From: Lachnospiraceae bacterium NE2001
Lineage (GTDB): Bacteria; Bacillota; Clostridia; Lachnospirales; Lachnospiraceae
Direction: 5' to 3'
Assembly (NCBI GenBank): GCA_900110635.1
Contig: FOEK01000009.1
Span: 62,001 to 126,000, forward strand
Length of the DNA stretch: 64,000 nucleotides
This document shows positions 4,291 through 60,149 of this stretch, piece after piece; the first letter of the stretch is position 1, and each line of letters begins with the position of its first letter. The notes beneath the pieces were generated by a model. That model was not told where the DNA came from and did no database searches. It saw only the letters and a list, made by a program, of their open reading frames with translations. The position numbers and the translations under genes were made by a program.

Positions 4291-4293
4291 TAT

Positions 4294-10736: not shown

Positions 10737-10820
10737 TGTGCAATGGGGTCTGACTTCCTTCGCTCACGCTCAGGCGCTAAAAACGTGTCTGCCACTGGCA
10801 GACAACGCGCCCATTGCACA
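10737..10820. repeat. GTGCA-family palindromic repeat with a 62-base interior (locus A1)
   Basis: TGTGCAATGGG (10737-10747) and CCCATTGCACA (10810-10820) are perfect inverted ends of the GTGCA family, starting immediately after the lipoprotein TAA. Unlike other copies, they enclose 62 bases. The interior contains its own hairpin (GTCTGCC/GGCAGAC) and no GGGGAC core pairing. It resembles a small mobile unit bounded by repeat arms. Confidence 0.75.
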
Positions 10821-13148: not shown

Positions 13149-13203
13149 TGTGCAAAAAGGGACAGACCTATGTGCAGTGGGGTCAGTCCCCACTGCACAT
13201 TTT
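13149..13203. repeat. GTGCA-family composite repeat (locus A2), terminator-like
   Basis: It begins at the base after the TAA stop. A decayed half-unit (TGTGCA...GGGACAGACC, 13149-13168) is followed by a perfect 12-bp palindrome, TGTGCAGTGGGG (13171-13182) with CCCCACTGCACA (13188-13199), then ATTTT. The next gene's GGAGGA starts at 13204, so the repeat fills the whole intercistronic gap and could terminate transcription. Confidence 0.85.
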
Positions 13204-22265: not shown

Positions 22266-22269
22266 ATTT

Positions 22270-22337
22270 AATCACCAACCAAGAACCGTCCTCAATTGGT
22301 GATATCACCAGCTGGGGACGGTTCTCTTTTGGTGATT
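22270..22337. repeat. ATCACCA-family inverted pair sharing the GGACGGTTCT core (locus D)
   Basis: Two hairpins lie head to head. In each, ATCACCA and TGGTGAT arms enclose AGAACCGTCC or its complement GGACGGTTCT. The inner core matches the AAGACAG-family repeats elsewhere in the window while the outer arms differ. The inverted-pair arrangement is that of a REPIN/BIME. Confidence 0.8.
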
Positions 22338-22369
22338 GACCAATATGTCAATTTTATGATGACAGAAAG

Positions 22370-22399
22370 TTGACATAAATAATAGTTAAATGGTAAAAT
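22370..22399 (+). promoter_or_regulatory. Promoter of the pilus operon
   Basis: TTGACA (22370-22375), an 18-base spacer and TAAAAT (22394-22399) lie about 40 bases before the GTG start of the first pilus gene. Confidence 0.65.
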
Positions 22400-22440
22400 A
22401 TAGTATTCTCAAATGCTATGCCTTGTAGTGGGAGTGTTTC

Positions 22441-23046: not shown

Positions 23047-23101
23047 TAATTATTTGTAGGTTTCTACAATTAAATAAAGCAGTATATGGAGGTATACAAA
23101 A

Positions 23102-24385: not shown

Positions 24386-24404
24386 TTCTTAGGATGGATA
24401 AAGT

Positions 24405-25112: not shown

Positions 25113-25150
25113 ATCGTTATTGTTCCGATTTTAGAAATTAGGAAATATCT

Positions 25151-28900: not shown

Positions 28901-31900
28901 ATGCTCTTGCTGGAAATAATACAGAAGAAGTGGGAAAACTTGCTGAAGATGATCCTAGAAAATATGAACGCCTTCATCTAATTCAAGGTAACGTTAACTA
29001 TTTCTTTGGAATGGAGATGAGTGCCAGCTTTGTACAGACTGCCAATGGTTTGGATTCGTGGGGACATGATATAATATTTGACTTTACAGGTGATGATGAC
29101 TTCTGGCTTTATGTAGATGGCGAGCTTGTCATAGATCTTGGTGGAACTCACAGTGCTGAACGTGGGCGTATTAATTTTAGAACCGGTGAGGTTTTATATA
29201 GTTTAGTTGATGCAGGTAACGAATCGAGAACAGAAACAACTACAACGTTAAAGGATATATTTAGAGAAAACTATGAGGCTAGAGGTGTAACTGATATAGA
29301 CGCCAAGTTGGATGAAATATTTGAAGACAATGGTAAAGGTCAATATATTTTTAAGGACTATACGACTCATTCAATGCGAGTATTCTATATGGAAAGAGGA
29401 GCAGGTGCCTCTAATCTTCATATGAAATTTAACCTTGCTGCTGTTACTCCTGGAAATGTTGTTGTATCAAAGACAATTGAAGGCCCGGGAGCTGATTCAG
29501 TAGATGAAGATTTTTTGGAGTATCCATTCCAGATTTACTACACAATCGATGATGGAATTGAGGTGAAAGAAAATCGTTTAGATAACTCAGATCCTAGGTA
29601 TGGTGTGACTTATCAGAATTCAAATAAACCGGTAACATATGTTAAAAAATATAGACCTCCTGGATTCACCGATGAGCAAGCCTATAGTGATATATTCTTC
29701 ATAAATCCTACGAAAAATGCAGAGATTTCGTTTCCAGATGATACGATCAGCTACAGGATTGTTGAATGTGCGGTTGATAGTTCTGTTTATGAACGTGTTC
29801 GTATTAATGGGGCGGACGTTCCGGAATCACAAATACAGGAAAATCGTGGATTGTTCAGTTATTCTTCTGAACTAAATACTGCTAAGGATAAACCGACAAT
29901 ATCATTTGAAAACTATGTAAATGATAATGTTATAAAAGATCTTAAGATTACAAAGAAGCTTGTGGATGAAGAGAATAATGAGATTACAGATGATGATGGA
30001 AGATTTAGTTTCAGGCTTAGTCTTTCTTCTGTAGATGTAGATGCTGACAAGATGCCACTGGCTAATATGTATAAATATTATGTTCTTTCACCTAAACCAG
30101 ATGAAAAAATATGCGTCTTTAATTCAGCAACAGGTAATTTTGAAAAGACATCACTTGAGTATACAAAGCAAAATATTAATGATGTAAAAGAAGATAAAGT
30201 TGATGGCCTTCATATAGATGATATTGCATTTACCACCTCTGGTTTTGGTGCTATATCCAATATCCCTTCGGGTTATTCTATAGTTGTTCCGGGACTTCCA
30301 GTTGGTACGATTTTTAAAGTTACTGAAGATATAAAGCCTGGATATGGACTAAAAGAATATACGTGTGAGATGGGTGAAAAGATAGACGCGGAAGGACATT
30401 CTCAGCCGATCCCATCGTATATCAGTTATAACAATAATCCAATAAATGTAGGCAGAGTCATTGTTGATGAGAATCCACAGATGTCAGTTGTTAATAGAAG
30501 AGGTTATGGCTTTACCGTAGAAAAGAAGTGGAGTGATCTTGATATTACTACTGGGCATGATACTGTGTATGTTGCTGTTTATGTAGATGGTGCACTTCTG
30601 GATGGCTCAGTTAGAGAGATAAAATCACCTGAGACCTCAGCATATTATTTCTGGACTTCATTGGAAAAGAAAAAAGACGGTTCAGAAAGAACAGATTTTA
30701 ATGGATATGAAACCAAAGAGGTTGTGCTGACAGGTAATCCGGTTGTTGCTGATGATGGAACAGTTTCGGGCTATGATACCATAACACCGTTAAATGAAGG
30801 CCAGATAATAAATCTTACGGCAACAAGAACCAAGGAGGCTACTCCTGAAGGGGAGGACAGGGACAAGCAATATGAGTATACCGTATCCTATGAAAAGGGA
30901 ACATTTGATGGCTCTACTCGTACAGATACTATTACCAATACTCGTAAAGGCGGAGTCGCAATAAGATTATTCAATTGGAACAGCAATGTTCCGCTGAAGG
31001 GCGGTAATTTTACACTTTCTGATAGTACTGGTAATACGGTTGGTAAGTTCACTTCTGATGCAGATGGAATAGTGAATATGCTATATAACTTCCAGCATGA
31101 TTCACTATATACACTTACTCAGACATCAGCTCCTGATGGGTATGTTGGCCTTCAAAAGAAGTTCTGTTTTATAGTAAATACTGATGATACAGTGTCTCTA
31201 TATTATAAAGATGGTACAACTGATTGGGGTAAAGAGGATGCAGCTGATAATAACTGGGTTAAGGAAAAACCTGGTGACAAGGGTATAACAGCTTATATTG
31301 ATATTTATAATAAAAAGTTTAATTTCCGAATTGAAAAGACGGATAGTGCTGATACAGAGCTTAAACTTGGTGAGGCACATTTTGCTTTATATAAGCAAGC
31401 TAACACCACTATTAGCGGATATGTAAAGAATAAGGATCCTATGACAGGGTTTGAAGATCTTACAACAGTGAATGGTGTGGTTGATATCTGCGGAGGAAGC
31501 AGCAACAGGATAATTAAGCCTGGAGAAAAAGGCTCTGTCTATTTCCTTACAGAAACACAGGCTCCTGCTGGTTATACAAAGCTGACGGAGGATATTATCT
31601 TTAAGATATCGCCTCTTGGAAAGCCAACGCTTATTTCTGATGTTTATCATGGTGTGCTTGTAGAGACTGATGATAGCTTTATCTACACCTTGAGCGTTCC
31701 GAATACAAGAGAGACAAATGATAAGATACTTACGGTTTCAAAAACTGTTACTGGTAATATGGGTAACAAAACTAAGAGTTTTACATTTACATTTGAAACA
31801 GATGGAGCGACGGGTGATAAATACGAATGGTCAAAGAATGGTGTATCGCAAGCGATGCCGCTAGTATCAGGAGATACATTTACTTTAAAGCATGATGAAA

Positions 31901-32187
31901 AAGTATTCATATTTGTTCCGACGGATACAGAGGTTACTATTTCTGAAATACCTTCAACAGAATATACTACTACGTTTAAACTTAATGATGGTGATCCTGA
32001 AGAGGTATTTGTAAAGTCAGTAAAGATGACTGAGAATGCATCGCTCAGTGTAGTAAATAATTGTACAGCGATTATCCCAACTGGAATCTGGCTTCCGATA
32101 GGTATTTTCCTTGGGGCAGGAGCAGTCCTTCTGGTAGCGATTATTCGTGGTAAGCGGAGAATAAAACGGTTAAAGGAAGAAACGTAA
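25915..32187 (+). CDS. Large sortase-anchored pilus adhesin (2090 aa) with fibro-slime-type and Cna-B/SpaA domains
   Basis: A 2090-residue surface protein, by size and position the pilus tip adhesin. A TTG start at 25915 overlaps the previous stop (TTGA), giving translational coupling; later ATGs would lose the signal peptide. Domains: signal (1-29), an acidic region with a 12-residue tandem repeat (about 205-245), and beta-rich modules (about 350-830). A fibro-slime/PA14-like domain follows, with FDFTGDDDFWLYVDGELVID (1055-1074). Then come a pilin-like beta domain (about 1340-1525), a Cna-B domain (about 1530-1675), two SpaA-type domains (about 1680-1790 and 1800-1925) and a DUF7601-like domain (about 1935-2040). 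The sorting signal is IIPTG (2053-2057) with a helix and basic tail. It probably binds a host or plant glycan; ligand unknown. Confidence 0.87.
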   Translation: MRHSLKNRIISGFAVLSLLISTFGPVTMAFEEKEQEASLYEVMSEKTETAEVSLLSSFEDSEIEVVCATETDAEIETDEGLEIVENYQIISRDKKSKETLFVKAEQDEMVSLLPRESMSIYSVEDDELKDVIIDDIAEEEAPCEIESDVTGFALVKDSGLRHLNFELSPKEAGESKVILDGMMPKDATAEAVDVTDKMSLTDDLDVGDATDTNAELEYNDATRTDAELEYNDATETNAELEDDAATKTDANEQSEGRVVAAYDITIRDEEEEYQPSVENPIAVEIHNPDIMADSDIQLWHIKDDGSREKIMDFDVEDGKVSFCATGFSVYEIVEGPEAFDPGDIDQLKEFNEFSTERAASGFFLGYKNGYITEAVNVNDAFIECKTHGDAAVWYFKDIVVKDNAIEAYICTKIDGVDYYINNKSGNLIELSETKKTKFEITKTGSTDYPDTFYFKSSEGSKWLQHSNGGDGVRFYTDKNNAVNCSIKVLYADTYLVPNDYYKLDGKTYGLMNYTNGTHGYALVAEDDNVHSLIQLVTHKTTDHDSVTLYVDEGSEITRWTFHLVGGDQYKLSGETEDGEVYLSVNGNDLQLVDSAEAASSFKVIADNNGRIQLKSDGKYITYVQGSGEDLSPSFVMSSTPSDKSWLNLVDFTTLSKDDYIIYTANRISISEAKDGQKVIVYTRIWNEETKQYDMYAVDYNGTLFQVYASGGKILWLGDGTGSLEWEFTEYLDKVTKEPNYYYELYNPYSEKYIAPQLEGNQVLSDSTIGINMNGRRDGEFYSDILAWDTTHYAYIGLKPDDEKKKLVPCSESVAVPFYFAVLEELNVSDRLNEVATIDNSQYGITMKMFDFNGNSSKLAETDVTKDYFNGDFSNSQGLLYTDLIYTEDENGNKDDGYPTIKTTNKSFKDMYKNAEDVNHLFIESVYNSSGYFEFDSCQNYATLNGKTSGDFTVYKELGTTNATTKHTLQHGQFYPYNTIKAGSYSSASPYNLYGMNALAGNNTEEVGKLAEDDPRKYERLHLIQGNVNYFFGMEMSASFVQTANGLDSWGHDIIFDFTGDDDFWLYVDGELVIDLGGTHSAERGRINFRTGEVLYSLVDAGNESRTETTTTLKDIFRENYEARGVTDIDAKLDEIFEDNGKGQYIFKDYTTHSMRVFYMERGAGASNLHMKFNLAAVTPGNVVVSKTIEGPGADSVDEDFLEYPFQIYYTIDDGIEVKENRLDNSDPRYGVTYQNSNKPVTYVKKYRPPGFTDEQAYSDIFFINPTKNAEISFPDDTISYRIVECAVDSSVYERVRINGADVPESQIQENRGLFSYSSELNTAKDKPTISFENYVNDNVIKDLKITKKLVDEENNEITDDDGRFSFRLSLSSVDVDADKMPLANMYKYYVLSPKPDEKICVFNSATGNFEKTSLEYTKQNINDVKEDKVDGLHIDDIAFTTSGFGAISNIPSGYSIVVPGLPVGTIFKVTEDIKPGYGLKEYTCEMGEKIDAEGHSQPIPSYISYNNNPINVGRVIVDENPQMSVVNRRGYGFTVEKKWSDLDITTGHDTVYVAVYVDGALLDGSVREIKSPETSAYYFWTSLEKKKDGSERTDFNGYETKEVVLTGNPVVADDGTVSGYDTITPLNEGQIINLTATRTKEATPEGEDRDKQYEYTVSYEKGTFDGSTRTDTITNTRKGGVAIRLFNWNSNVPLKGGNFTLSDSTGNTVGKFTSDADGIVNMLYNFQHDSLYTLTQTSAPDGYVGLQKKFCFIVNTDDTVSLYYKDGTTDWGKEDAADNNWVKEKPGDKGITAYIDIYNKKFNFRIEKTDSADTELKLGEAHFALYKQANTTISGYVKNKDPMTGFEDLTTVNGVVDICGGSSNRIIKPGEKGSVYFLTETQAPAGYTKLTEDIIFKISPLGKPTLISDVYHGVLVETDDSFIYTLSVPNTRETNDKILTVSKTVTGNMGNKTKSFTFTFETDGATGDKYEWSKNGVSQAMPLVSGDTFTLKHDEKVFIFVPTDTEVTISEIPSTEYTTTFKLNDGDPEEVFVKSVKMTENASLSVVNNCTAIIPTGIWLPIGIFLGAGAVLLVAIIRGKRRIKRLKEET
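26532..26668 (+). repeat. 36-bp in-frame tandem repeat in the adhesin gene
   Basis: Three to four units encode DAT-x-T-x-AELEYN variants in the acidic N-terminal stalk of the adhesin. Neighbouring copies are almost identical at the DNA level, suggesting recent expansion. Confidence 0.85.
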
Positions 32188-32208
32188 TAAAGATTTCTAA
32201 CTGACGGG

Positions 32209-32254
32209 AAAAAGGGCGTTATGAGTGTAATACTTGTAACGCCCTTTTTATTTT
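32209..32254 (+). terminator. Terminator of the pilus operon
   Basis: A stem of about 12 bp (AAAAGGGCGTTA with TAACGCCCTTTT) is followed by T-rich sequence, about 20 bases after the adhesin stop. Confidence 0.85.
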
Positions 32255-32357
32255 CATATTTTTTCTTATAGTTGGTACCTTTCGCTGTTATGAATGTGTT
32301 ACAATAGGTAATAGATTTGTAAGAGTGACAGGTATTTATTCTCACTGGAGGAAGATG

Positions 32358-32954
32358 ATGAAGATATATGTGGATTTCGATGATTGTCTGTGTGAAACGG
32401 CCAGGTCGTTTTCGAGTCTTGCGATAGAAATGTTTGGAAAGAATGTTCCATATGATGATATTAGATATTTTGAATTAGATAAATCCTTTGATTTAACGCC
32501 TGAGCAGTTTGATCAGTTTATGGTAAGAGGGCATCAACCAGAGGTTCTTCTTTCATACGAAGAAACTCCTGGCGCATCAGAGGTTATTAATGAATGGATT
32601 ACTGCTGGACACGATGTTTCGATCATCACTGGTCGCCCATATAGTGCCTACGAACCATCCAGAGAGTGGCTTGATAAACACAACCTCAAGAATGTAAGAC
32701 TATATTGTCTGAACAAATATGGCAGGGAAAGATTCTATGAGAATCTGGAGTTCAGCCTGGAATTAGATGACTATTATAAAATGCAATTCGATTTTGCAGT
32801 GGAGGATTCTCCGAGTGCATTTAAGTTTTTTGATCATCTGCCTGATCTCAAGGTGCTGGTTTTTGACAGGCCTTGGAACAGGGCGTGTGAGTTTCCAAAT
32901 CCCAATTATAGAAGATGCCTAGATTGGGAGAATATAAGACAAATCGTTGTATAA
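32358..32954 (+). CDS. HAD-superfamily nucleotidase-like hydrolase
   Basis: A 198-residue HAD protein: motif I DFDDCLCETA (residues 5-14), motif II in SIITGRPYSAYE, motif IV in FAVEDSPSAF. It is distantly related to the NT5C-like protein at 13217-13726. ATG 32358 is preferred to the adjacent ATG at 32355 because it lies six bases from GGAGG (32347-32351). The last two bases of the TAA stop are the first bases of an AAGACAG-family repeat. Substrate unknown. Confidence 0.75.
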   Translation: MKIYVDFDDCLCETARSFSSLAIEMFGKNVPYDDIRYFELDKSFDLTPEQFDQFMVRGHQPEVLLSYEETPGASEVINEWITAGHDVSIITGRPYSAYEPSREWLDKHNLKNVRLYCLNKYGRERFYENLEFSLELDDYYKMQFDFAVEDSPSAFKFFDHLPDLKVLVFDRPWNRACEFPNPNYRRCLDWENIRQIVV

Positions 32955-33008
32955 GACAGAGAGCCGTCCCCTGTCTTAAAAAGAAGACAGAGAACCGTCC
33001 CCTGTCTT
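32953..33008. repeat. AAGACAG-family repeat, two copies (locus B1)
   Basis: Two 25-base units (32953-32977 and 32984-33008) have arms AAGACAG and CTGTCTT around GAG(A/C)CCGTCCC-type cores, in the same orientation and six bases apart. The first overlaps the stop codon of the HAD gene. Confidence 0.88.
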
Positions 33009-33037
33009 GTTAGTTAAGTAGTAAAGGTAGTAGTATT

Positions 33038-34270
33038 ATGAAGAGTAGTGTTGGTTGGACGATTAGGTATACTTTGATAAATGTTACGTATTTCGTGGCA
33101 TTTTGCACGATACATGCACTGGCAGCCCTTTATCTGCTGGATCGAGGGTTTTCGAATACTGAAGTGGGTATTTTATTGGCGGTAGCTAATATATTATCAG
33201 CCATATCTCAGCCGATAGTGGCTGGTATTATTGATAAACCAGGGCCGCTTACCAATAGGCGGTTTATCCTTATCTCTGTAATGATAATTGCTCTAGGTTC
33301 AATCCTTCTTATGCTTTTTGATGATAAGAAGGTTCTTGTTTTTATAGTCTATGTGATCATATATATGGTTCAGTTTACTTATCAACCTGTGATGACGGCG
33401 CTCTGCTTCGAGTATCAGAAAGCTGGCTATAATATATATTATGGTCTTGCCAGAGGGCTTGGATCCGCCAGCTTTGCAGTTACATCGGCTTTTGTAGGCG
33501 GAGCAGTGGCGAGGAGAGGCGTTGGATTACTACTGGTTATCAATGTCGTGTCCATGCTTCTTTCGGCTGTTATAGTGTATACATTTAAGATGTCTGATAA
33601 GAAAACAGAAGATGGAAAAAAAGATGTGCAAAATGGTGCTGATAGTGATTCAGTAAATGAACGAGACATAGATTCTGATGAAGTGGCACATAACAATCTC
33701 TTTGATTTCATCCGAACTTATCCCGCATTTTCTTTATTCCTGCTAGGAACTATCTGTTTTTTCTTCGCCCACAATATGATAAATGACTTTATGATCCAGA
33801 TAATCCGTTCACTTGGTGGCGGAGAGAAGGAACTGGGTTATTCCAACTTTCTGCAGGCGATTCTGGAATTGCCGGTTATGGCAATGATAGGTATCATCCT
33901 TAAAAAGATTACCTCTAATAGACTATTGATTATCTCTGGTATAGCATTTTTCATCAAGATTCTGATTCTTGTTTTTGCCACAAATATGGTGGGGATGTAT
34001 GTAAGCCAGTCCTTCCAGCTCTTTGCTTATGCGGTTTTCATACCTGCGGCTGCGTATTATGTGAGCAGCAATATGTCAGAGCTTGACCAGGTAAAGGGAC
34101 AGGCATTTGTAACCAGTGCGATCACTATTGGTGGAGTTTTCTCCAATTTGATAAGTGGTGTGATACTCGATAACCTAGGCATCAAACAGATGCTGATCAC
34201 GGGAACTGTAACGGCACTTGTAGGTGTTGTTATAACAATAATAGCCTTTAAACCTAAAAGGAGTAGTTGA
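33038..34270 (+). CDS. Major facilitator superfamily transporter
   Basis: A 410-residue integral membrane protein with about twelve hydrophobic helices, split by a charged cytoplasmic loop (about residues 185-220, rich in Lys, Asp and Ser). The N-terminal segment (LYLLDRGFSNTEVGILLAVANILSAISQP) resembles the LacY/NupG-like branch that moves sugars or nucleosides with protons. The substrate cannot be assigned. It lies downstream of the repeat pair and 17 bases before an iron-sulphur flavoprotein gene. Confidence 0.85.
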   Translation: MKSSVGWTIRYTLINVTYFVAFCTIHALAALYLLDRGFSNTEVGILLAVANILSAISQPIVAGIIDKPGPLTNRRFILISVMIIALGSILLMLFDDKKVLVFIVYVIIYMVQFTYQPVMTALCFEYQKAGYNIYYGLARGLGSASFAVTSAFVGGAVARRGVGLLLVINVVSMLLSAVIVYTFKMSDKKTEDGKKDVQNGADSDSVNERDIDSDEVAHNNLFDFIRTYPAFSLFLLGTICFFFAHNMINDFMIQIIRSLGGGEKELGYSNFLQAILELPVMAMIGIILKKITSNRLLIISGIAFFIKILILVFATNMVGMYVSQSFQLFAYAVFIPAAAYYVSSNMSELDQVKGQAFVTSAITIGGVFSNLISGVILDNLGIKQMLITGTVTALVGVVITIIAFKPKRSS

Positions 34271-34287
34271 TTTAGGAGGTAGGAAAT

Positions 34288-45454: not shown

Positions 45455-47860
45455 ATGACGTTAAGAGAACTAGCGGTAGGCGAGACCTGCGTTATTAACT
45501 CTGTTGGCGGAGAGGGAGCTCTTCGTCAACATTTTCTTGATATGGGTGTTATCCCGGGAGTGGAAGTGACTCTTGTTAAGCTGGCTCCTATGGGGGATCC
45601 TATGGAGCTGAGAATACATGGGTACGAGCTGACGCTTAGACTTGCGGATGCGGAGCAGATAGAGGTTGTGACTGTAACTAAGGATAGCGAAGATGCTTCT
45701 GATAATAAGGATAACGACGAGATAAAGAAGAACTCTGGAAAATCAGGAAAGAGCTCTGATAAAGAAGAAGATAAAGATAAGAAAAAGCATAAGCACCATC
45801 CTGGGCTTGGTGAGGGCGGTATATACCACGACCATACCAAGGAGAAGAAACTGCCACACGGAACGCTGCTTACATTTGCCCTTGCAGGTAATCAGAACAG
45901 TGGAAAGACAACACTCTTTAATCAGCTGACTGGCTCCAATCAGCACGTGGGTAACTTTCCGGGTGTTACGGTAGATAGAAAGAGTGGAGTTATAAAGGGC
46001 CATAATAACACTGAGGTGGTTGATCTGCCTGGTATTTATTCTCTGTCTCCTTATACCGATGAGGAGATAGTATCACGACAGTACATTATCGGTGAGAAGC
46101 CGAAGGGCATCATCAATATAGTGGATGCTATGAACATAGAGAGAAATCTGTACCTCACTATGCAGCTTATAGAGCTGGATGTGCCTATCGTTCTGGCACT
46201 CAACATGATGGATGAGGTAAGAGGTAATGGGGGCTCTATTAACATTAATGCTATGGAGGCGTTACTAGGAATTCCTGTAGTTCCTATTTCAGCGGCAAAG
46301 AATGAAGGTGTAGATGAGCTTATAAGCCACGCGCTTCACGTGGCCAAGTATCAGGAAAGCCCTGGAAAGAAGGACTTCTGTGATGAGTCAGATCACGGTG
46401 GAGCGGTACATAGATGTCTCCACGGTATTATGCACCTTATTGAAGATCACGCGAAGGCTGCTGAGATTCCGGTAAGATTTGCGGCAAATAAGGTGATAGA
46501 GGGAGATAATCGTGTTATAGATGCGCTGAACCTTTCACAGAATGAAAAGGAAATGGTTGAGCACATTATTGTTCAGATGGAGGAAGAGAGAGGTTTGGAC
46601 AGATCTGCTGCGATAGCGGATATGAGATTCTCTTTTATAGATAAGCTGGTTAAGGAGACGGTTGTTAAGCCGGCGGAGAGTAAGGAACGGGAGCGGAGTG
46701 AAAAGATAGACAAGATCCTTACGGGCAAGTTTACTGCGATTCCGAGCTTCGTACTCATAATGGCTGTGATCGCATTTCTCACCTTTAATAGTCTGGGGGC
46801 ATGGTTACAGGGACTCCTGGAGTCAGGGATTGGTTTTGTAACTGACAAGCTGGATGCGGCACTTACTGCCTGGAATGTTAATGACGTTATTCATTCTCTG
46901 ATCATCGATGGGATCTTCAGTGGTGTGGGAAGCGTGCTGAGCTTCCTGCCTATCATTATTCTGCTGTTTTTCTTCCTGTCGCTTCTGGAGGATACGGGCT
47001 ACATGGCCAGAGTTGCCTTCGTGATGGACAGACCTCTTCGTAAGCTGGGTCTTTCGGGACGAAGCATAGTGCCGATGCTGATTGGCTTTGGCTGTTCGGT
47101 GCCTGGTGTAATGTCAAGCCGTACCATGCCGTCGGAGCGGGATAGAAAGATGACCATAATGCTGATCCCATTTATGAGTTGTACCGCAAAGTATCCTATA
47201 TATGGATTTCTTGTAGCAGCATTTTTTCCAGGTAAAGGAGCACTTATCATCATAGCGCTTTATCTGCTTGGAATCATTGTGGGAATCGTTACGGCTCTTG
47301 TATCAAAGCGGTTCGTTTTTAAAGGCGAGGCGGTTCCTTTCGTTATGGAGCTTCCAAACTATCGTATGCCAGGGGCTAAGAACGTGGCACAGCTGATGTG
47401 GGAGAAGGCGAAGGACTTTTTGGTTAAAGCCTTTACTATAATCTTTGTGGCGACCATCGTTATATGGTTCCTGCAGACATTTAATCTTCACCTGGGTCTT
47501 GCTGAAGATCCAGCTGAAAGTATACTTGCAAAGGCGGCAGGACTTATCGCACCTGTCTTTGCACCACTTGGTTTCGGTGATTGGCGTGTTGTAACGGCAC
47601 TTATTACAGGCTTTATGGCGAAAGAGAGCGTGGTATCTACCCTTACAATTCTGACAGAGGGAAATATTACCGGATTTATTGGAACTGCGGCGGCAGCATC
47701 CCTTCTGGTATTCTGCCTGCTCTATACTCCTTGCGTTGCAGCCATAGCTTCAGTAAAGCGCGAGCTGGGACGCAAATGGGCACTGGTAATGGTAGCACTT
47801 CAGTGCACTGTGGCATGGCTTGTAGCATTGCTCGTATATCTAATTGCTTCACTTGTGTAA
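45455..47860 (+). CDS. feoB: Ferrous iron transporter, FeoA-FeoB fusion
   Basis: An 801-residue fusion. FeoA-like SH3 domain (residues 1-75: RELAVGETCVINSVGGEG and DMGVIPGVEVTL), then a charged Lys/Asp linker with a His-rich stretch (KKHKHHPG ... YHDH, about 110-128). The FeoB G domain (about 140-300) follows with P-loop GNQNSGKT (145-152), switch DLPGIYSLSPYT and NMMDE as the guanine-specificity motif. Then come a helical domain and the membrane part with Gate motifs (FGCSVPGVMSSRTM and a C-terminal CLLYTPCVAAIASVKRE). It imports Fe2+ under anaerobic conditions. A GTGCA repeat begins at the base after the stop. Confidence 0.95.
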   Translation: MTLRELAVGETCVINSVGGEGALRQHFLDMGVIPGVEVTLVKLAPMGDPMELRIHGYELTLRLADAEQIEVVTVTKDSEDASDNKDNDEIKKNSGKSGKSSDKEEDKDKKKHKHHPGLGEGGIYHDHTKEKKLPHGTLLTFALAGNQNSGKTTLFNQLTGSNQHVGNFPGVTVDRKSGVIKGHNNTEVVDLPGIYSLSPYTDEEIVSRQYIIGEKPKGIINIVDAMNIERNLYLTMQLIELDVPIVLALNMMDEVRGNGGSININAMEALLGIPVVPISAAKNEGVDELISHALHVAKYQESPGKKDFCDESDHGGAVHRCLHGIMHLIEDHAKAAEIPVRFAANKVIEGDNRVIDALNLSQNEKEMVEHIIVQMEEERGLDRSAAIADMRFSFIDKLVKETVVKPAESKERERSEKIDKILTGKFTAIPSFVLIMAVIAFLTFNSLGAWLQGLLESGIGFVTDKLDAALTAWNVNDVIHSLIIDGIFSGVGSVLSFLPIIILLFFFLSLLEDTGYMARVAFVMDRPLRKLGLSGRSIVPMLIGFGCSVPGVMSSRTMPSERDRKMTIMLIPFMSCTAKYPIYGFLVAAFFPGKGALIIIALYLLGIIVGIVTALVSKRFVFKGEAVPFVMELPNYRMPGAKNVAQLMWEKAKDFLVKAFTIIFVATIVIWFLQTFNLHLGLAEDPAESILAKAAGLIAPVFAPLGFGDWRVVTALITGFMAKESVVSTLTILTEGNITGFIGTAAAASLLVFCLLYTPCVAAIASVKRELGRKWALVMVALQCTVAWLVALLVYLIASLV

Positions 47861-47920
47861 TGTGCAATGGTGCAATGGGGTCTGTCCCCATTGCACCTAG
47901 GTCTGTCCCTTTCTGCACAT
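47861..47920. repeat. GTGCA-family composite repeat, reverse orientation (locus A3)
   Basis: It begins directly after the feoB TAA. GGTGCAATGGGG (47869-47880) pairs with CCCCATTGCACC (47886-47897). An outer TGTGCA (47861-47866) pairs with TGCACA (47914-47919). The half-unit GGTCTGTCCC lies on the 3' side, so the composite unit is inverted relative to loci A2, A6 and A7. Confidence 0.88.
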
Positions 47921-47954
47921 ATAATTGTTTGAAAATATTTTTCTGGGGGTTTTT

Positions 47955-49499
47955 ATGTTTAGGATTAAAGGTATTTTAAAAAGAGGATTATGTTTAGGAC
48001 TATCACTCACGCTTGTTTTGTCTTGTGCTTCCTGTGGTAAGGAGGAAATAGTTGGAGATGATTATAGTGCTCAGTCAGATAAAACGACTGCGGAGTCTGA
48101 TTCTAAGTCCGATTCTGAGTCTGATCCTGTATCTGATTCTGGGTCTGATTTTGAAAATCTAGATAATGCTGGACGTAGCCTAACTGAAATATTTGGTGAA
48201 AATATATCTGCTACTGATGGATTTAATGTAGGGAATGTTACTGTGGAATACGCCCTTGATTATAAGGTTCCTGAGGTTGAAAAGATAAATCTATATGAAG
48301 GTAATTTCATTGAAGATAATTCTGAGATAGAGAAACAGATTGTAAGTAGTTTCTTTGGTGGAACAGAGCAAAACCTTGATGAGATTAAATATGTAAATGA
48401 AACAGATTATATACTTCTTCTATATAAATATAGAAGTATATTGGATTCAGCATCTTCAGGTAGTTCTAATGGAGCGTCTAGTGATGGTATAACCTTGGAC
48501 ATTATTGATTCCTCATTTGAAGAGGTTTACACCTGGGTGGATGAGTCATCCTATTATATTCACATGTATGAAGGTGAATATAATGGAACTAGATTCGGAA
48601 TGATATATTCTTATGATAAGACCAGTTTAAAAAGAAATATATATATATGTCCAATAAGTATAGATGAATATTTCCCTGATCAAGATGTGAAAACCATGTT
48701 TGTTGTAGATCAGGATTCTGATTATGGAACGAATAATGTATGTACAATGTCTGAGGCGGATATAGAGTCTGAAGCGAGTGTCGTTGTGGCGAAGCTTGGC
48801 CTCGGTGAAGATGATGTTAAGATATCATTTGATCCGAGTATGGCACCTCCTGATGAGGATGTTTTTTGGGCAAACTATGAAAATGAAGCTTATAACAAGA
48901 TGCCTAAACTTGTCTTTTCAGATTCGGATATTATATTCACGGTTGGAAAGCTAAATATTTCAAATCCTGCGGGACGTACATATGCTTATAAGATATTAAA
49001 AGAACAGCCTTTTGAACAGCAGATGGGAAATGGACAATCAGAAGATGCGATTTTAACAGAAAATGGATATGCAGTATATTTTTGTTCGATGCCTTTTTCT
49101 GAGAATGTTGAGCCTGAGGCGCCGTCCACATTCAATAGAGGTAGTGTTTTATTCACAGATAAAGGGCTCTTTTTAGCTGATATTTCTGTGATAACTGAAA
49201 TGGTAGATGTAGTCGAAGGTGTTTCACTTCTTTCGTTTGATGAAATAAAAGAGCATTTTAAAGAGGCTCTAAATAATGATCCTGATATTTCTAAAAAATC
49301 ATCAGGTAGCCTGGACGTTATCAGCGTAAGCTTTACATATGTTCTAATTCAGGACGAGGAAAGTGGTAAAGCAAAATATGTTCCTGCCTGGTATTTTATA
49401 ACAAAGGATAATAAGCTTAAGGACGGAGATCAGAATGTTACTTATTCCCATGTAATAAGCGCTATTGATGGATCGGATTTAAAAGATATGATTAGATAA
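47955..49499 (+). CDS. Lipoprotein with Ser-Asp repeat, function unknown
   Basis: A 514-residue lipoprotein. ATG 47955 is chosen because GGGGGT lies upstream; an in-frame TTG at 47925 is rejected. The signal peptide ends in the lipobox at Cys27 (CASCG). A short Ser/Asp-rich stalk (about residues 37-63) anchors a large extracellular domain. The C-terminal part (IKEHFKEALNNDPD ... SGKAKYVPAWYFITKDNK) resembles the YycI/YycH-like beta folds of regulatory lipoproteins (weak impression). Nothing in the neighbourhood fixes its role. Confidence 0.65.
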   Translation: MFRIKGILKRGLCLGLSLTLVLSCASCGKEEIVGDDYSAQSDKTTAESDSKSDSESDPVSDSGSDFENLDNAGRSLTEIFGENISATDGFNVGNVTVEYALDYKVPEVEKINLYEGNFIEDNSEIEKQIVSSFFGGTEQNLDEIKYVNETDYILLLYKYRSILDSASSGSSNGASSDGITLDIIDSSFEEVYTWVDESSYYIHMYEGEYNGTRFGMIYSYDKTSLKRNIYICPISIDEYFPDQDVKTMFVVDQDSDYGTNNVCTMSEADIESEASVVVAKLGLGEDDVKISFDPSMAPPDEDVFWANYENEAYNKMPKLVFSDSDIIFTVGKLNISNPAGRTYAYKILKEQPFEQQMGNGQSEDAILTENGYAVYFCSMPFSENVEPEAPSTFNRGSVLFTDKGLFLADISVITEMVDVVEGVSLLSFDEIKEHFKEALNNDPDISKKSSGSLDVISVSFTYVLIQDEESGKAKYVPAWYFITKDNKLKDGDQNVTYSHVISAIDGSDLKDMIR

Positions 49500-49503
49500 C
49501 TTG

Positions 49504-49534
49504 GTGCAGTGGGGTCCGTCCCCGCTGCACTTTT
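49504..49534. repeat. GTGCA-family repeat (locus A4), terminator-like
   Basis: GTGCAGTGGGG (49504-49514) and CCCCGCTGCAC (49520-49530) pair with one wobble and are followed by TTTT. It starts four bases after a TAA stop and ends at the next gene's GAGGGG. Confidence 0.9.
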
Positions 49535-49543
49535 GAGGGGATA

Positions 49544-50095
49544 ATGATGGAAGAGGTGAAGTTGAAAAAGTGGGATTGGTTCCGTGATCATATGGAATAC
49601 TTTCTGGTATATTGCCTGATAGGCTGGATTTATGAATCTATCTGGTGCTGCTGGATATATCATAAACTGGGATTTATAAATCGTGGCTTTCTTTTTGGCC
49701 CGTGGATTCCTATATATGGAATAGGCTTTTTTATTATATATGGGCTTTTTAAACTGATAAGAGTTAAGAATCCTATACTTGTTTTTATTGTCGGTACTGC
49801 AATTGCTACTGGTATTGAACTCCTGGCTAGTTATATAATCGAGGCTGTGATGCACAGAAAACTGTGGGATTATACGGGCTACTTCTTGAACTTTCAGGGG
49901 AGAATAGCATTTGAAGCCAGCATGATGTTTGGTATAATGATCTTCGCGGCTATATGCCTGATTCATCCTGCGATTAAAAAAATGCAGGAAAAGATCCATG
50001 ACAGCAAGGTTCATAACGTGATATTTATTATCATATCATCACTGTTCTTTATTGATCTTGTGGCAAGAATCTGGCTGGGGAGCAATATGAAATGA
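49544..50095 (+). CDS. CmpB-type putative ABC transporter membrane protein
   Basis: A 183-residue protein with five or so hydrophobic helices. It shows YCLIGWIYESIWC and GFLFGPWIPIYGIG, the signature of the putative ABC-transporter type IV family PF06541. No ATPase gene is adjacent. The stop overlaps the next start (ATGA), so the next small protein is translationally coupled. Function of the family is not established. Confidence 0.82.
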   Translation: MMEEVKLKKWDWFRDHMEYFLVYCLIGWIYESIWCCWIYHKLGFINRGFLFGPWIPIYGIGFFIIYGLFKLIRVKNPILVFIVGTAIATGIELLASYIIEAVMHRKLWDYTGYFLNFQGRIAFEASMMFGIMIFAAICLIHPAIKKMQEKIHDSKVHNVIFIIISSLFFIDLVARIWLGSNMK

Positions 50096-50628
50096 GTAGA
50101 AGGATAAACTTTTTTGCAACTGAAAAGGATATGGTGAGCCTGCTTAAAGAAGTAGAGGAAACGATACCATTTGATGTTAAATATATTCTTTCGTATGATA
50201 TAAATATAGTTACTGAAAAAGTGCTTGAGTATAAAAATGTTGAGCAGATTCCGAATCTTGATAGGTTGACAAAGGGACATAGTGAGAAGAGTTTTCTGAT
50301 CACGCGTAGTGACGTGAAGCCTGAGATTAAGGATACTCCGATCGGAGTGAAGGTAAACCAGGGGGAAAATCCAGAATCTGTAGGCTTTGATCCAAGTGGA
50401 TTCAGCGAAGATGGAAGCTGCCTTATACATGGCATCTTTTCGATGATGGAGGAAAATGTTATCTCAAAGGAGCTTTTTAATACAATACGAAGGCTCATGA
50501 ATAAACATTTTATTAAGTTGCGAGGCTGGTATTTTGGTGATGATGCAAAGTCACTTTGTGGACAGGTGAGATATATATGTATCGGCGTGAATGAGCCTGA
50601 GGAATACGACTTTCATCCTGAGTTTTAG
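50092..50628 (+). CDS. Hypothetical protein coupled to the CmpB-type membrane protein
   Basis: A 178-residue soluble protein without signal peptide or recognised motif; mixed alpha/beta composition, ending RYICIGVNEPEEYDFHPEF. Its ATG overlaps the preceding stop (ATGA), which supports it being a real gene and cotranslated. No family recognised. Confidence 0.65.
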   Translation: MSRRINFFATEKDMVSLLKEVEETIPFDVKYILSYDINIVTEKVLEYKNVEQIPNLDRLTKGHSEKSFLITRSDVKPEIKDTPIGVKVNQGENPESVGFDPSGFSEDGSCLIHGIFSMMEENVISKELFNTIRRLMNKHFIKLRGWYFGDDAKSLCGQVRYICIGVNEPEEYDFHPEF

Positions 50629-50668
50629 GTAAGTTTTAGAAAGGAATTACTACTTAGTTTTAACTGAT

Positions 50669-51358
50669 ATGAAGATAAAGAAAATACTGACAAAGCTGAT
50701 CGTGATTTGCTTGATTACGTGTTTTGTCATTGGTGCTATAGTTTTAGGTTTAAACTTTTATATTATAAAATCTGTAAAAAGAAATGTAATCTCTGTTGAT
50801 GATACTGCATCTCTTGAGGATGTGGACTGTATAATAGTTTTAGGCTGTGGAGTTTATGCAGATGGAACTTTAAGTCCTATGCTGAACGATAGACTCAGTC
50901 TTGCGGCTGATGTGTATGGAAAGGGAGCTTCAGAGAAGCTTCTAATGTCTGGTGATCATGGCACTGAATACTACAATGAGGTCAGTGCTATGAAGAACTA
51001 CATGACTTCTAACGGTATTGCTTCATCATCTGATATTTTTATGGACCATGCAGGATTTTCAACTTACGAAAGCATCTACCGCGTAAAAGAAATCTTTGGT
51101 GCTAAGAAGATAGTGATCGTCACGAATACATATCATCTCTATCGTGCGCTGTATATTGCTAAATGTTTTGGACTGGATGCGTATGGTGTTGGTGTTGATG
51201 ATACCTATACTGGAAGAGAGTATAGAGAGGTTCGTGAGATCCTAGCAAGAGATAAGGATTTTGCGAAATGTATTGTAAAACCTGAGCCAACATTTCTTGG
51301 TGAATCCATAGATCTTAAAGGTGATGGAAATGTAACAGAAGATAAAAGTACAGATTAA
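50669..51358 (+). CDS. YdcF/SanA-family (DUF218) membrane protein
   Basis: A 229-residue protein with one N-terminal membrane helix (about 8-30) and a DUF218 domain. The domain has CIIVLGCGVYADGTLSPMLNDR, LLMSGDHGTEYYNEV and VTNTYHLYRA, matching SanA/YdcF. SanA affects cell-envelope permeability in enterobacteria; the Gram-positive role is unclear. Its 3' end carries a 23-base tandem duplication that runs into a GTGCA repeat. Confidence 0.85.
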   Translation: MKIKKILTKLIVICLITCFVIGAIVLGLNFYIIKSVKRNVISVDDTASLEDVDCIIVLGCGVYADGTLSPMLNDRLSLAADVYGKGASEKLLMSGDHGTEYYNEVSAMKNYMTSNGIASSSDIFMDHAGFSTYESIYRVKEIFGAKKIVIVTNTYHLYRALYIAKCFGLDAYGVGVDDTYTGREYREVREILARDKDFAKCIVKPEPTFLGESIDLKGDGNVTEDKSTD

Positions 51359-51377
51359 CAGAAGATAAAAGAACAGG
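51333..51377 (+). repeat. 23-bp tandem duplication abutting repeat A5
   Basis: TAACAGAAGATAAAAG-type copies at 51333-51355 and 51356-51377. The first is coding and the second starts with the TAA stop and ends exactly where the GTGCA palindrome begins. Confidence 0.8.
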
Positions 51378-51409
51378 TGCAGTGGGGACGGACCCCGCTG
51401 CACTTTTTT
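51377..51409. repeat. GTGCA-family repeat (locus A5), upstream of the RAYT gene
   Basis: GTGCAGTGGGG (51377-51387) and CCCCGCTGCAC (51393-51403) flank ACGGA and are followed by six T. It lies about 100 bases before the RAYT start. Confidence 0.92.
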
Positions 51410-51507
51410 GTTTTATTTAGAAGGTATTTATGATAATATAATTTTCAATTGTTTGTTCGTTAATAAAATGTCATTGAGTCTCGAGTTACTAGAAAGGAGT
51501 GGGTAAC

Positions 51508-52245
51508 TTGCCAAGAAAACCTAGAGTATTTGAGGCTCAAGGATATCTGCACATCATCGTAAGAGGAAATGCAAAACAAATCATTTTCGAATGCGATGGT
51601 GATTATTTATATTTCATTTCCCTTTTGAAAAAGTATTCGGAAGAAACAGGTGTGCGTGTTTGTGCTTATTGTTTAATGAGCAATCATGTCCATTTGCTTG
51701 TTTATTATGAAAATGATAGCGTTCCAGTACTGATGAAAAAGTTAGGCGTTGCCTATACAAGTTATTATAACTGGAAATATGATCGGGTTGGTCACTTGTT
51801 TCAAGGGCGTTACAAGTCTGAACTTGTAATGGATGAACGTTATTATTTGACGGTGTTCAGGTATATTTTGAATAATCCTGTAAAAGCTGGAATATGTGAG
51901 GCGGCCAAATACAAATGGAGTAGCTTCGATATTTTTTCGAAGAGAAACCATTTTGTTGATACAACGCTTATTCTGGAGCTTGTTGGTGGCTATGATGAAT
52001 ATATTCGTTTTATGGGAGAACCTAATTCTGACGAATGCATGGAGTACGAATCGATAGCGCATAATGATAAATGGGCGATCGATGTAATGAATCGGGTTTT
52101 GGGTATACAAAGCGGAAATGAAATAAAAACGTACGACAAGATTAAAAGGGATGCAGCTATCCGAAAGCTAAAAGAAAATGGATTAAGCCAAAATCAAATA
52201 GCCAGAATAACTGGTTTGGGTCGTGGAGTAATTCAAAAAGCATAA
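51508..52245 (+). CDS. REP-associated tyrosine transposase (RAYT, Y1_Tnp family)
   Basis: A 245-residue IS200/IS605-like single-strand transposase domain protein. TTG 51508 is chosen: it gives the usual MPRKPR N terminus and lies eight bases after AAGGAG, while the GTG at 51499 overlaps that site. Metal-binding HVH is at residues 60-62 (LMSNHVHLLVY), the nucleophile candidate Tyr119 lies in FRYILNNPVKAG, and GHLFQGRYKSE is also typical. A C-terminal helix-turn-helix (about 215-245, LKENGLSQNQIARITGLG) probably reads the palindrome. GTGCA repeats lie 100 bases upstream and two bases downstream, as expected for a RAYT with its REP elements. Likely nicks or moves those palindromes as single strands. 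Confidence 0.9.
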   Translation: MPRKPRVFEAQGYLHIIVRGNAKQIIFECDGDYLYFISLLKKYSEETGVRVCAYCLMSNHVHLLVYYENDSVPVLMKKLGVAYTSYYNWKYDRVGHLFQGRYKSELVMDERYYLTVFRYILNNPVKAGICEAAKYKWSSFDIFSKRNHFVDTTLILELVGGYDEYIRFMGEPNSDECMEYESIAHNDKWAIDVMNRVLGIQSGNEIKTYDKIKRDAAIRKLKENGLSQNQIARITGLGRGVIQKA

Positions 52246-52247
52246 AA

Positions 52248-52305
52248 GTGCAATTGGGGACAGACCTTGGTGCAATGGGGTCCGTCCCCACTGCACATTT
52301 TTATA
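52248..52305. repeat. GTGCA-family composite repeat (locus A6), directly after the RAYT
   Basis: A half-unit GTGCAATTGGGGACAGACC (52248-52266) is followed by the palindrome GGTGCAATGGGG (52269-52280) with CCCCACTGCAC (52286-52296), then ATTTTT. It begins two bases after the RAYT TAA stop and ends next to the Nudix gene's ribosome binding site. Confidence 0.92.
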
Positions 52306-52320
52306 AAGGAGGAAGAAAGT

Positions 52321-52806
52321 ATGGAATATGATTGCTGTTTTACAAATGAGAACAAATGGTTTCGCTACAGGGCATCCGCTATAATTGTGGAGGAAGGCTG
52401 CGTGCTTTTTGCTGGTAATGAGAATGATGATTATTTCTATTCCATAGGTGGTGGAGTTCATATGGGGGAAACTGCAGAAGATGCTGTGAAGCGTGAGGTT
52501 CTGGAAGAAACGGGAATTCCTTATGAGGTTGATCACTTGGCTGTTATACATGAGAATTTCTTCTGTGAGAATCAATCGTATCTTAAAGGGCTGGATTGCC
52601 ATGAGATAGCTATGTATTACGTGATGAAGCCTAGAGGAACTAAGGAACTGAAAAGCGATAGCTATACTCAGGGCGTTAAAGAAAGTATGCACTGGATACC
52701 TATCGAGGATTTAGAAAAATATAAGGCTTTCCCTACATTTATGAAAGACTTCCTCCAAAGTGAACATGAAGGAGTTGAACATATCGTAACTGACGAGAGA
52801 CAATAA
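52321..52806 (+). CDS. Nudix hydrolase
   Basis: A 161-residue pyrophosphohydrolase with the Nudix box GGGVHMGETAEDAVKREVLEETG. The N-terminal strands (YRASAIIVEEGCVLFAGNE) are typical. It cleaves nucleoside diphosphate derivatives such as oxidised dNTPs or ADP-sugars; the substrate is unknown. ATG 52321 has AAAGGAGGAAG upstream; an in-frame ATG at 52267 lies inside the repeat and is rejected. Confidence 0.9.
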   Translation: MEYDCCFTNENKWFRYRASAIIVEEGCVLFAGNENDDYFYSIGGGVHMGETAEDAVKREVLEETGIPYEVDHLAVIHENFFCENQSYLKGLDCHEIAMYYVMKPRGTKELKSDSYTQGVKESMHWIPIEDLEKYKAFPTFMKDFLQSEHEGVEHIVTDERQ

Positions 52807-52830
52807 AATGGTGTAGTGTTAGTAAAAATG

Positions 52831-52884
52831 GTGCAGTTGGGGACAGACCTCCGTGCAGTGGGGACGGACCCCGCTGCACATTTT
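52831..52884. repeat. GTGCA-family composite repeat (locus A7) between convergent genes
   Basis: Half-unit GTGCAGTTGGGGACAGACC followed by GTGCAGTGGGG (52853-52863) paired with CCCCGCTGCAC (52869-52879) and ATTTT. It lies between the Nudix gene (+) and the aldehyde dehydrogenase (-), ending at the latter's stop codon, where it may terminate transcription. Confidence 0.92.
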
Positions 52885-54307
52885 AGCGTTCGAAGAGGTG
52901 GATGAGGAGTGATTTCCACTTCGGGGCGTAGGGGTGCTCGCGCATTGGCAGGTTGAAGTGGGTGGAGCCAATAAGTACGCTCTGTGGATGAGTGAACTCT
53001 TTGAATCCCCACTCGCCGTGATATGCTCCAATGCCTGAATGGCCAACACCATTAAATGGCACGCCTTTCACCATCATATGCAGGCACACTTCGTTGATGC
53101 AGCCACCACCGAACTGCATTCGCTGCATTGTCTTCTTGGCCCATTCGATGTCCCTGGTAAATATATACAGAGATAGGCCCTTTTCACGTTTTGATATCTC
53201 TTTTATCAGGCTGTTGATCTGCGCATCCTTGTATGGAACAACTGGCAGGATAGGGCAGAACAGCTCTTTTTTAACAACATCCTCGTTTGCACCAATCGGA
53301 TAAAGAATCGTAGGAGAAAACTTTAGTCTGGTTCTGTCGCCTGTGCCGCCATAGATGACTTTGTCACGATATTTTTCAACCTCGTTATTACATTTGTCGT
53401 AGGCTGCTTCGTTTATCAAATGTGGATATTCAGGATTGGTACAAGGTTCATCGCCCAGCTGCTTAGTAAAGGCGCATTTCAGCTCGTATAAAAACTTGTC
53501 TGCAACTTCTTCAGCAACAGCCACCTGGTTTATATTGATGCAGATCTGTCCGGAATTAAGAGCTTTGAAAAATGCTATCTTATGTGCTGCATCTTTAAGG
53601 TCTGCGTCTTTACGAATGATGCACCAGTTGCCTGTTTCGCCGCCCAGCTCAAGAGCAACTGGAGTCAGATTCTTTGAAGCCATTTCCATAACGTGTGAAC
53701 CAACTCTGGGTGATCCTGTATAAAATATCTTGTCAAAACGCTGTTCAAGACAGATGTCTGCGATGTCGTGCCCACCGCCCAGAACAGTTACATACTTCTC
53801 TGGGAAAATCTGAGATATTATTTTCTGCATAAGCTCAGTGCAGTGTGAAGACTTTGAACTGGCCTTGATCACAGCCGTATTTCCGCCTGCTATACTTGCT
53901 GCAAGTACGCCGAGAGAGAGTAGTATCGGAAAATTAAAGGGGCTGATGATCAGTGTGACTCCGTAAGGCAGCTTGTATACTTTAGTCACAAGACTTGGAA
54001 AACAGTGAAGTCCACTGAAATGTGTCTCTGGCTTTGCCCATTTTTGAAGCCCCTTTATTATCTCATTTATCTCGAGTATCAGACTGCCGATATCACAGAA
54101 GTAAGCCTCCACAGGATCACGTCCAAGATCTGCGGCAAGAGCTTCCTTTAGTTCAGTTTCATTTTTTATCACAGCAGCTCGGAGTCTCTTCAGCTGTCTT
54201 ATACGGAATTCAACAGGAAGAGTCTTGTCTGTACCGAAAAATCTTCTCTGTGCTTCGACGATCATTTCAATCTTTTCTCTGTTTTCTTTATTTGAATTTA
54301 CAGACAT
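52883..54307 (-). CDS. Aldehyde dehydrogenase
   Basis: A 474-residue NAD(P)-dependent aldehyde dehydrogenase of the class 3/coniferyl-aldehyde type. The general base Glu220 lies in VALELGGETGNW, the nucleophile Cys256 lies in NSGQICININQ, and the proline-rich ISPFNFPILL motif and TGSPRVG of the cofactor fold are present. The C-terminal FGGGCINEVCLHMM and GVGHSGIGAYHGEWGF blocks are typical. It has GGGGGAG before the ATG on the - strand. It is the only - strand gene in the window and is divergent from the sulfhydrylase gene. Confidence 0.92.
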   Translation of the reverse strand: MSVNSNKENREKIEMIVEAQRRFFGTDKTLPVEFRIRQLKRLRAAVIKNETELKEALAADLGRDPVEAYFCDIGSLILEINEIIKGLQKWAKPETHFSGLHCFPSLVTKVYKLPYGVTLIISPFNFPILLSLGVLAASIAGGNTAVIKASSKSSHCTELMQKIISQIFPEKYVTVLGGGHDIADICLEQRFDKIFYTGSPRVGSHVMEMASKNLTPVALELGGETGNWCIIRKDADLKDAAHKIAFFKALNSGQICININQVAVAEEVADKFLYELKCAFTKQLGDEPCTNPEYPHLINEAAYDKCNNEVEKYRDKVIYGGTGDRTRLKFSPTILYPIGANEDVVKKELFCPILPVVPYKDAQINSLIKEISKREKGLSLYIFTRDIEWAKKTMQRMQFGGGCINEVCLHMMVKGVPFNGVGHSGIGAYHGEWGFKEFTHPQSVLIGSTHFNLPMREHPYAPKWKSLLIHLFER

Positions 54308-60089: not shown

Positions 60090-60149
60090 GTGCAGCGGGG
60101 ACGGACCCCATTGCACAAAAATATGCAGCGGGGACGGACCCCATTGCAC
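60090..60149. repeat. GTGCA-family repeat, two direct copies (locus A8)
   Basis: Two palindromes, 60090-60116 and 60124-60149, have GCAGCGGGG and CCCCATTGC arms around ACGGA, in the same orientation with a 33-base period. It fills the gap between the toxin-like gene stop and the tex ribosome binding site (60153-60159). Confidence 0.92.

Follow-up and report, generated by a model that had tools for sequence, protein, structure and literature searches.

Which DNA does a RAYT-like transposase serve when palindromes of one family stand on both sides of its gene and recur in the surrounding sequence, and by what feature would the enzyme know them? The question is raised by a locus in the 64,000 nucleotides analysed here (the window), which belong to the genome of Lachnospiraceae bacterium NE2001 (G000) and for which a preliminary description had proposed a REP/RAYT system with GTGCA-type palindromes.

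The transposase gene and its protein

The gene (51508..52245, plus strand) encodes a RAYT/TIRYT-type Y1 HUH transposase of 245 aa, or of 248 aa from an alternative GTG start at 51499. It had been described as a RAYT with an HVH motif and a candidate Tyr119, and this holds: the open reading frame is present, the product matches Pfam Y1_Tnp (E = 1.1 × 10−11), HVH occupies residues 60-62, and H60, H62, Y119 and N123 are invariant in 27/27 sequences from whole-protein searches (set A1) and, for H60 and H62 partly by construction, in 81/81 sequences comprising the window RAYT and the best 80 of 567 relatives (set A2). The relatives in A2 were collected by scanning with the peptide patterns CLMxNH[VI]H[LIM] and K[YH]xRxG[HN]LFQ, the first of which contains both histidines, so that conservation of columns 55-63 and 90-99 is partly by construction and that of columns 100-124 is not. 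Tyr119 aligns with residue 115 of the E. coli RAYT. Y1_Tnp was found in all 81 members of A2 (the window RAYT and the best 80 of 567), all of which also match the NCBIfam RAYT equivalog NF047646 at E ≤ 0.001; the window protein reaches 52.4 bits with this model (E = 5.2 × 10−14), below the cut-off of 80. The top PDB match of the predicted structure (mean pLDDT 92) is 4er8 (Foldseek E = 3.3 × 10−7, TM 0.74 by target), the E. coli RAYT with bound REP hairpin, and a sequence profile search led to the same entry (E = 5 × 10−7). As to the C-terminal helix-turn-helix that had also been proposed, helices are predicted in the model (211-223, 228-235 and 239-244), whereas the Pfam matches of the window protein are sub-threshold, below the gathering score; in A2 (again the window RAYT and the best 80 of 567), HTH_23 was found in 15/81 and HTH_28 in 5/81 members at E ≤ 0.01.

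The gene is present in a single copy in the window genome (3.72 Mb, 62 contigs). Five other Y1_Tnp matches in this genome lie in short frames (56-99 aa); two outscore the 47 bits of the RAYT and two lie at contig ends, and we read all five as IS200-type pieces.

Anatomy and number of the palindromes

The basic palindrome, P, is 27 bp long (GTGCARYGGGG-WCNGW-CCCCRYTGCAC). A 22-bp unit, U (GTGCARNNGGGGACAGACCTnn), stands head to tail before P or inverted behind it, and the arrangements U-P, P-U', U-U-P and U-P-U' were all seen. The copy on the left of the RAYT (A5, 51377..51403, no strand assigned) is a P that is terminator-like, with a T tract, and the copy on the right (A6, 52248..52296, plus strand) is a composite U-P; they lie, as had been noted, about 100 bases upstream of the RAYT start and two bases downstream of its stop. 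The six further loci listed for the window are likewise all present. Composites of the U-P type occupy 13150..13198 and 52831..52879 (both plus strand), the second of them after a NUDIX gene, and a P-U' (47870-47918), preceded by a half repeat, fills 47862..47918 on the minus strand. A lone P lies at 49504..49530 and two palindromes with starts 33 bp apart at 60090..60149 (no strand assigned to either); both of these sites are also filled in the sister species (G203). The locus recorded at 10737 is a longer variant of 82 bp (10738..10819, plus strand), in which the arms GTGCAATGGGG and CCCATTGCAC enclose a hairpin-bearing stuffer and of which two further copies were found in the 484 kb of the genome that were read, making three loci altogether.

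Sequences within one mismatch of GTGCANNGGGG occur 24 times in the window against 6.25 expected, a number that 0/100 shuffles reached. In the whole genome we counted 100 forward and 98 reverse matches to the strict palindrome, largely the same places met on both strands, and none with the reversed-pattern control. Chance and assembly artefact are rejected as sources of the palindromes by the shuffles, the reversed control and the sister genome, which is a single contig. Rfam at gathering thresholds gave no match in the window. With two mismatches permitted, the 484 kb yielded 60 element clusters, which include weak, probably chance or fragmentary matches (e.g. C18 45779, C18 64436 and C20b 8119). 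Of their 120 ends, 78 carry an AT extension and none has a GT[AG]G foot, which is present in 87 of 3000 random 8-mers. Two of the P hairpins, folded as single-stranded DNA, have energies of -12.7 and -14 kcal/mol, with z below -5. With respect to replication-strand bias, a tally by eye over 53 places of the sister genome gave, for the asymmetric composites, 9 on the minus and 7 on the plus strand in one half of its contig (the first) and 16 and 21, respectively, in the other.

Copy number follows this RAYT within the genus

Among 61 genomes of the genus, GTGCANYGGGGNNNGWCCCC has 107 forward and 111 reverse matches in the window genome, 90 and 87 in the sister species, 3 and 2 in a third genome (G206), and none in the other 58. 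A RAYT relative at E ≤ 0.001 was found in 21/61 of these genomes, and one with more than 57% identity only in the window genome (100%) and the sister species (96%); the third genome, with its three palindromes, gave neither a RAYT relative at E ≤ 0.001 nor a Y1_Tnp match. The family sample (200 genomes) has the strict palindrome in the window genome alone (1/200), whereas some RAYT relative occurs in 41/200. The palindrome thus goes with this RAYT and not with RAYTs at large. Because the only two carriers of the exact pair are close relatives, the association within the genus amounts to about one event. Whether the palindrome count tracks the presence of an intact RAYT had been proposed as a check, and in the genus it does follow this gene (about 90-110 copies in the two carriers, 0-3 in the others). 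By these sequence comparisons, the link between this RAYT and the GTGCA palindromes is well supported.

A core shared by the flanks of RAYT relatives

The first set comprised 53 loci, 45 of them with flanks of at least 300 bp. At 24/45, the two flanks contain an inverted repeat whose score exceeds the best of about 300 mispaired controls (18). Many of these inverted repeats are built around GGGGAC, with differing arms. The window locus itself (L017, score 20) owes its inverted match to the palindromic P, and the flanks of the RAYT of the sister species (L077) score 9, at control level; in both species, the composites flanking the gene point in the same direction on both sides.

A second set was made from the best 80 of 567 loci, of which 4 were dropped for short flanks, leaving 76 that share a few genomes with the first set and come from Lachnospiraceae, Desulforamulus, Sporomusa, Pelosinus, Syntrophomonas, Bacillaceae, Collinsella, Olsenella, Treponema and others. 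GGGAC[AG] is present in both 400-bp flanks of 66/76 of these loci, compared with 4/59 at 1500-1900 bp away and 9/76 with reversed flanks, and GGGGAC in both flanks of 53/76, compared with 2/59 far away and 9/76 reversed. At 38/76 loci of the same selection, the inverted-repeat score is higher than those of 99% of 400 mispaired flanks. The type of core clusters on the RAYT tree (121 rows, 93 of them labelled, with 6 pairs at 90% identity or more retained), requiring 21 changes where shuffled labels need 26.7 on average and 23 at the least (0/200 as low). The closer two proteins are, the more often they have an 18-mer around the core in common: 2/2655 pairs below 35% protein identity and 4/6 pairs at 90% or more. 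The feature shared across the relatives is the core GGGGAC, and GTGCA is the arm of the window genome and its sister species. A GTGCA-x-GGGG stem in place of the enterobacterial GTAG had been put forward as the mark of this system; the absence of GTAG stands, and the part of the stem that the relatives have in common is the GGGGAC core rather than GTGCA.

Eight shorter RAYT relatives (L034, L035, L090-L092 and L094-L096; 187-227 aa), most of which begin with WYPGA close to the N terminus, are without GGGGAC in both flanks; the inverted repeat at one of them (L034) is of another sequence, GGTACCTGACACC.

Residues at the guide-reading positions

The residues W94, Q95, E100, H101 and R104 of E. 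coli TnpAREP are discussed as GTAG contacts by Quentin 2018 (PMC6006769). In our alignment, they correspond to F98, Q99, S104, E105 and M108 of the window RAYT. Among the 81 members of A2 (the window RAYT and the best 80 of 567), columns 98 and 99 hold F in 79 and Q in 77, partly by construction, column 104 holds S in 80, column 105 holds E in 68, and column 108, where the window RAYT has M, holds E in 65. It had been suggested that target recognition may differ from that of enterobacterial REPs, and the replacement of the GTAG-reading residues in the window RAYT and its relatives fits this suggestion; we infer that the swapped residues account for the different tag.

Elements with the GGGGAC core and orphan families

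The RAYT-bearing genomes of both samples, 61 in number, contain 77 RAYT matches, and the 500 bp on either side of every match were examined. Where GGGGACGGTTC occurs in a RAYT flank, 14/16 genomes carry at least 10 further copies (median 30), compared with 5/45 of those without a flank copy (median 1; p = 5 × 10−8). The five genomes with at least 10 copies and no flank copy are G000, G036, G203, G128 and G212, and the two flank-positive exceptions are G018, without any further copy, and G247, with 7. In hand counts from the search tables, in which a genome counts as lacking a RAYT match if the window protein finds none in it at E ≤ 0.001, at least 10 copies of GGGGACGGTTC were present in 11/41 RAYT-bearing genomes of the family sample versus 2/159 without a RAYT match (p = 5 × 10−7), and in 10/21 versus 7/40 genomes of the genus (p = 0.018). 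Of the seven RAYT-less congeners with at least 10 copies, G219, G222 and G231 have IS200-sized or partial Y1_Tnp matches and G253 a weak one; the Y1_Tnp search gave no match in G232, G235 and G248.

Equal abundance of palindromes in relatives lacking a RAYT had been named as an observation that would speak against the proposed system. The GTGCA family withstands this check, and GGGGAC elements at large do not: the window genome and several congeners carry GGGGACGGTTC elements for which no cognate RAYT was found. The window genome has about 196 copies (102 + 94), and the 44 in the stretches read are mostly AAGACAGGGGACGGTTCTCTGTCTT, some resembling ATCACCA...TTGGTGAT. In the window, exact GGGGACGGTTC lies at 22314, 32992, 36750, 55921 and 62641, in elements of the AAGACAGGGGACGGTTCTCTGTCTT types and, at 22283-22324, of the ATCACCA...TTGGTGAT type. 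The arm pattern GACAGGGGACGGTTCTNTGTC occurs 105 times in the window genome, 26 times in G232, 2 and 3 times in G233 and G257, and not at all in 57 others. Two RAYTs of other genomes (L210 and L230, 65% alike) carry this arm in their flanks, and a search with L230 found only the resident RAYT, a 35% relative, in the window genome and none in G232. In G009, 122 copies of GGGGACGGTTC accompany no Y1_Tnp match and a 60-residue C-terminal RAYT fragment (L245, G009:C61:111514-111693), which fits loss of the gene after the elements had spread. The orphan families speak against strict tracking of elements by RAYTs; the resident RAYT might act on them in trans.

Comparison with the sister species

The contig that carries the window (C41) is largely collinear with 2.95-3.06 Mb of the sister genome, most blocks having 71-90% nucleotide identity. 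Sites were compared if they had more than one half unit and both flanks placed near each other in the sister genome, which left out lone half matches and sites with unplaced or distant flanks. Of the 14 sites of the window genome comparable in this way, 9 are occupied in the sister species too and 5 show no recognisable element there; in the reverse direction, 8/8 placed sites of the sister species also have a site in the window genome. Among the five, C41:44229-44294 is the only clean empty site: the sister sequence runs straight through at a stop codon, and the extra DNA in the window genome permits a reading in which TAG stands at either end. Three of the others lie in poorly conserved gaps, and at C18:60459 the element may have decayed. 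Some sites common to the two species have different numbers of U units. A related species pair with filled and empty sites is a place to look for transposition.

The block that holds the RAYT and its neighbours (49544-52806) is 89-97% identical to the sister genome, while many other blocks are at 71-85%, and it may have been exchanged between the two species. At 22194-34285, 12.1 kb are without a counterpart in the sister genome, which has 24 bases there; they encode a signal peptidase, a sortase, FctA-type and SpaA-domain proteins and an MFS transporter, which mark the stretch as a putative sortase-assembled surface (pilus-like) locus. Close to the left edge of this stretch is a GGGGAC element. 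A 9-kb stretch at 270-9323, with open reading frames of 272-661 aa, is absent at that place in the sister genome.

How the palindromes may have spread

We consider it probable that a RAYT/TIRYT-type transposase recognises, nicks and has spread hairpin elements with a GGGGAC core. The bind-cut-rejoin scheme for hairpins comes from E. coli TnpAREP and the IS200/IS605 enzymes, and by analogy with these a chromosomal Y1 HUH transposase, present in one copy per genome, would recognise a single-stranded hairpin in which a lineage-specific arm (AATGTGCA/TGCACATT here) surrounds the core. The loop around residues 98-108 would read GGGGAC, Tyr119 would cut the element and the RAYT would rejoin it elsewhere, so that binding and cutting of the hairpins, and their spread by the RAYT, are all ascribed to one protein. 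The short, non-autonomous elements would be copied or moved in this way and would survive mostly outside genes, often just behind a gene's 3' end. The palindrome family, the tag common to the relatives and the replaced guide residues point to one testable rule for what such enzymes read.

Their positions could also reflect a function for the host. Outside ATG open reading frames of at least 100 aa lie 28/39 of the strict-palindrome sites in the 484 kb, compared with 13% of random positions; of 32 distances measured to a gene's 3' end, 20 do not exceed 30 bp, and five of the 28 sites are in convergent gaps, which make up 17/278 of the gaps, all by mechanical open reading frames (used also for the clusters and the indel comparison below) and not gene calls. 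Together with the terminator-like form of the copy at 51377, this would suit hairpins that act as bidirectional intrinsic terminators or mRNA 3' ends and are kept by selection without a causal role of the RAYT. However, 58 of the other 60 congeners are without the palindrome, a distribution not expected of a general host terminator, and the core recurs beside RAYT relatives of other genera; moreover, 47500-53200 contains 3 terminator-like sites against 2.9 in shuffles, only one palindrome of that region being among them. We regard this explanation as unlikely.

Improbable to the same degree is that the gene belongs to an ordinary, itself mobile IS of the IS200/IS605 kind whose ends spawned MITEs, as the inverted repeats around many relatives and the MITE-like long variant with its stuffer might suggest. 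Against this, the gene is single in the window genome and the sister species and has the same neighbours in both (the second RAYT of the sister species is only 45% alike), the two gene copies have diverged with a low dN/dS (0.12, at dS 0.12), the modelled RAYT has an extra C-terminal region, and its best structural match is a RAYT rather than an IS200 transposase. Very improbable, and not supported, is the view that gene cassettes attach at the palindromes and that the RAYT is one such cassette among several: the sister species does have a 307-aa open reading frame between two U-P elements (G203:C1:3026578-3027732) where the window genome has the single element at 47862, and a 154-aa open reading frame before its left RAYT element, but junctions of large indels are not enriched at elements (8/29 intergenic gaps with an element versus 33/124 without, p = 1).

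GGGGAC palindromes could form one more large superfamily of REP-like DNA, the third next to the GTAG and CGTC repeats, over Bacillota, Coriobacteria and Treponema, each family being serviced by a RAYT whose guide loop, FQ(D/G)R(F/Y)xSExVE, reads GGGGAC; the arms would set specificity in each genome, and RAYT and arms would turn over together, leaving orphan families behind. We judge this broader proposal about equally likely to hold or to fail.

Relation to known systems

Our literature search, in which most subscription journals were outside coverage, found no report of GGGGAC palindromes in Clostridia. The locus had been presented as a REP/RAYT system: the link between RAYT and palindromes is upheld, and the elements are not REPs by the published definition, as none of the 120 ends has the foot.

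The TnpA proteins of IS200/IS605 (ISDra2, IS608) have the same Y1 HUH core, and recognition of single-stranded DNA hairpins, inferred by analogy, is the likely mode here as well; unlike them, the window gene is unrepeated in its genome, its protein is longer and the structural match is weaker. The enterobacterial REP/RAYT system (E. coli TnpAREP, 4er8) shares with the present one the Y1 HUH fold, the catalytic tyrosine and a single gene beside multicopy palindromes, whereas the GT[AG]G foot is absent here, the GTAG-reading residues are replaced and there is an extra C-terminal region.

Within the TnpAREP classification of Quentin, the window RAYT probably belongs to subclass 2.1. According to that study, this subclass comprises long Y1 proteins with a C-terminal HTH (Bac_DnaA_C, HTH_23 or HTH_28) and probably corresponds to TIRYT, and no REP-like sequences were found near its genes (Quentin 2018, PMC6006769). 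The region that reads GTAG has different residues in subclass 2.1, as it has in the window RAYT; the difference is that here GGGAC[AG] stands on both sides of 66/76 relatives (from the best 80 of 567) and about 100 copies of the palindrome occur in the window genome.

The TIRYT/TIRtron, as described, consists of a RAYT-like gene with flanking terminal inverted repeats that share GGGGWSAS, some families of these repeats being moderately abundant, some self-complementary, and found singly, as dimers or in groups (Di Nocera 2013, PMC3733652); the main text of that paper contains no occurrence of 'Clostridi', 'Firmicutes' or 'GGGGAC'. In both cases a Y1 gene lies between repeats, and the right element here has GGGGACAG, which fits GGGGWSAS. 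In contrast, the left element and most relatives have GGGGACGG, one position off that consensus, the elements here are (U)n-P-(U')m arrays with a 22-bp period, and the RAYT flanks form no clean inverted pair. The system works like REP/RAYT, and the closest described kind is the TIRYT/TIRtron; what goes beyond the print that we found is the multicopy palindrome family, the breadth of the GGGGAC tag and the copy-number tests.
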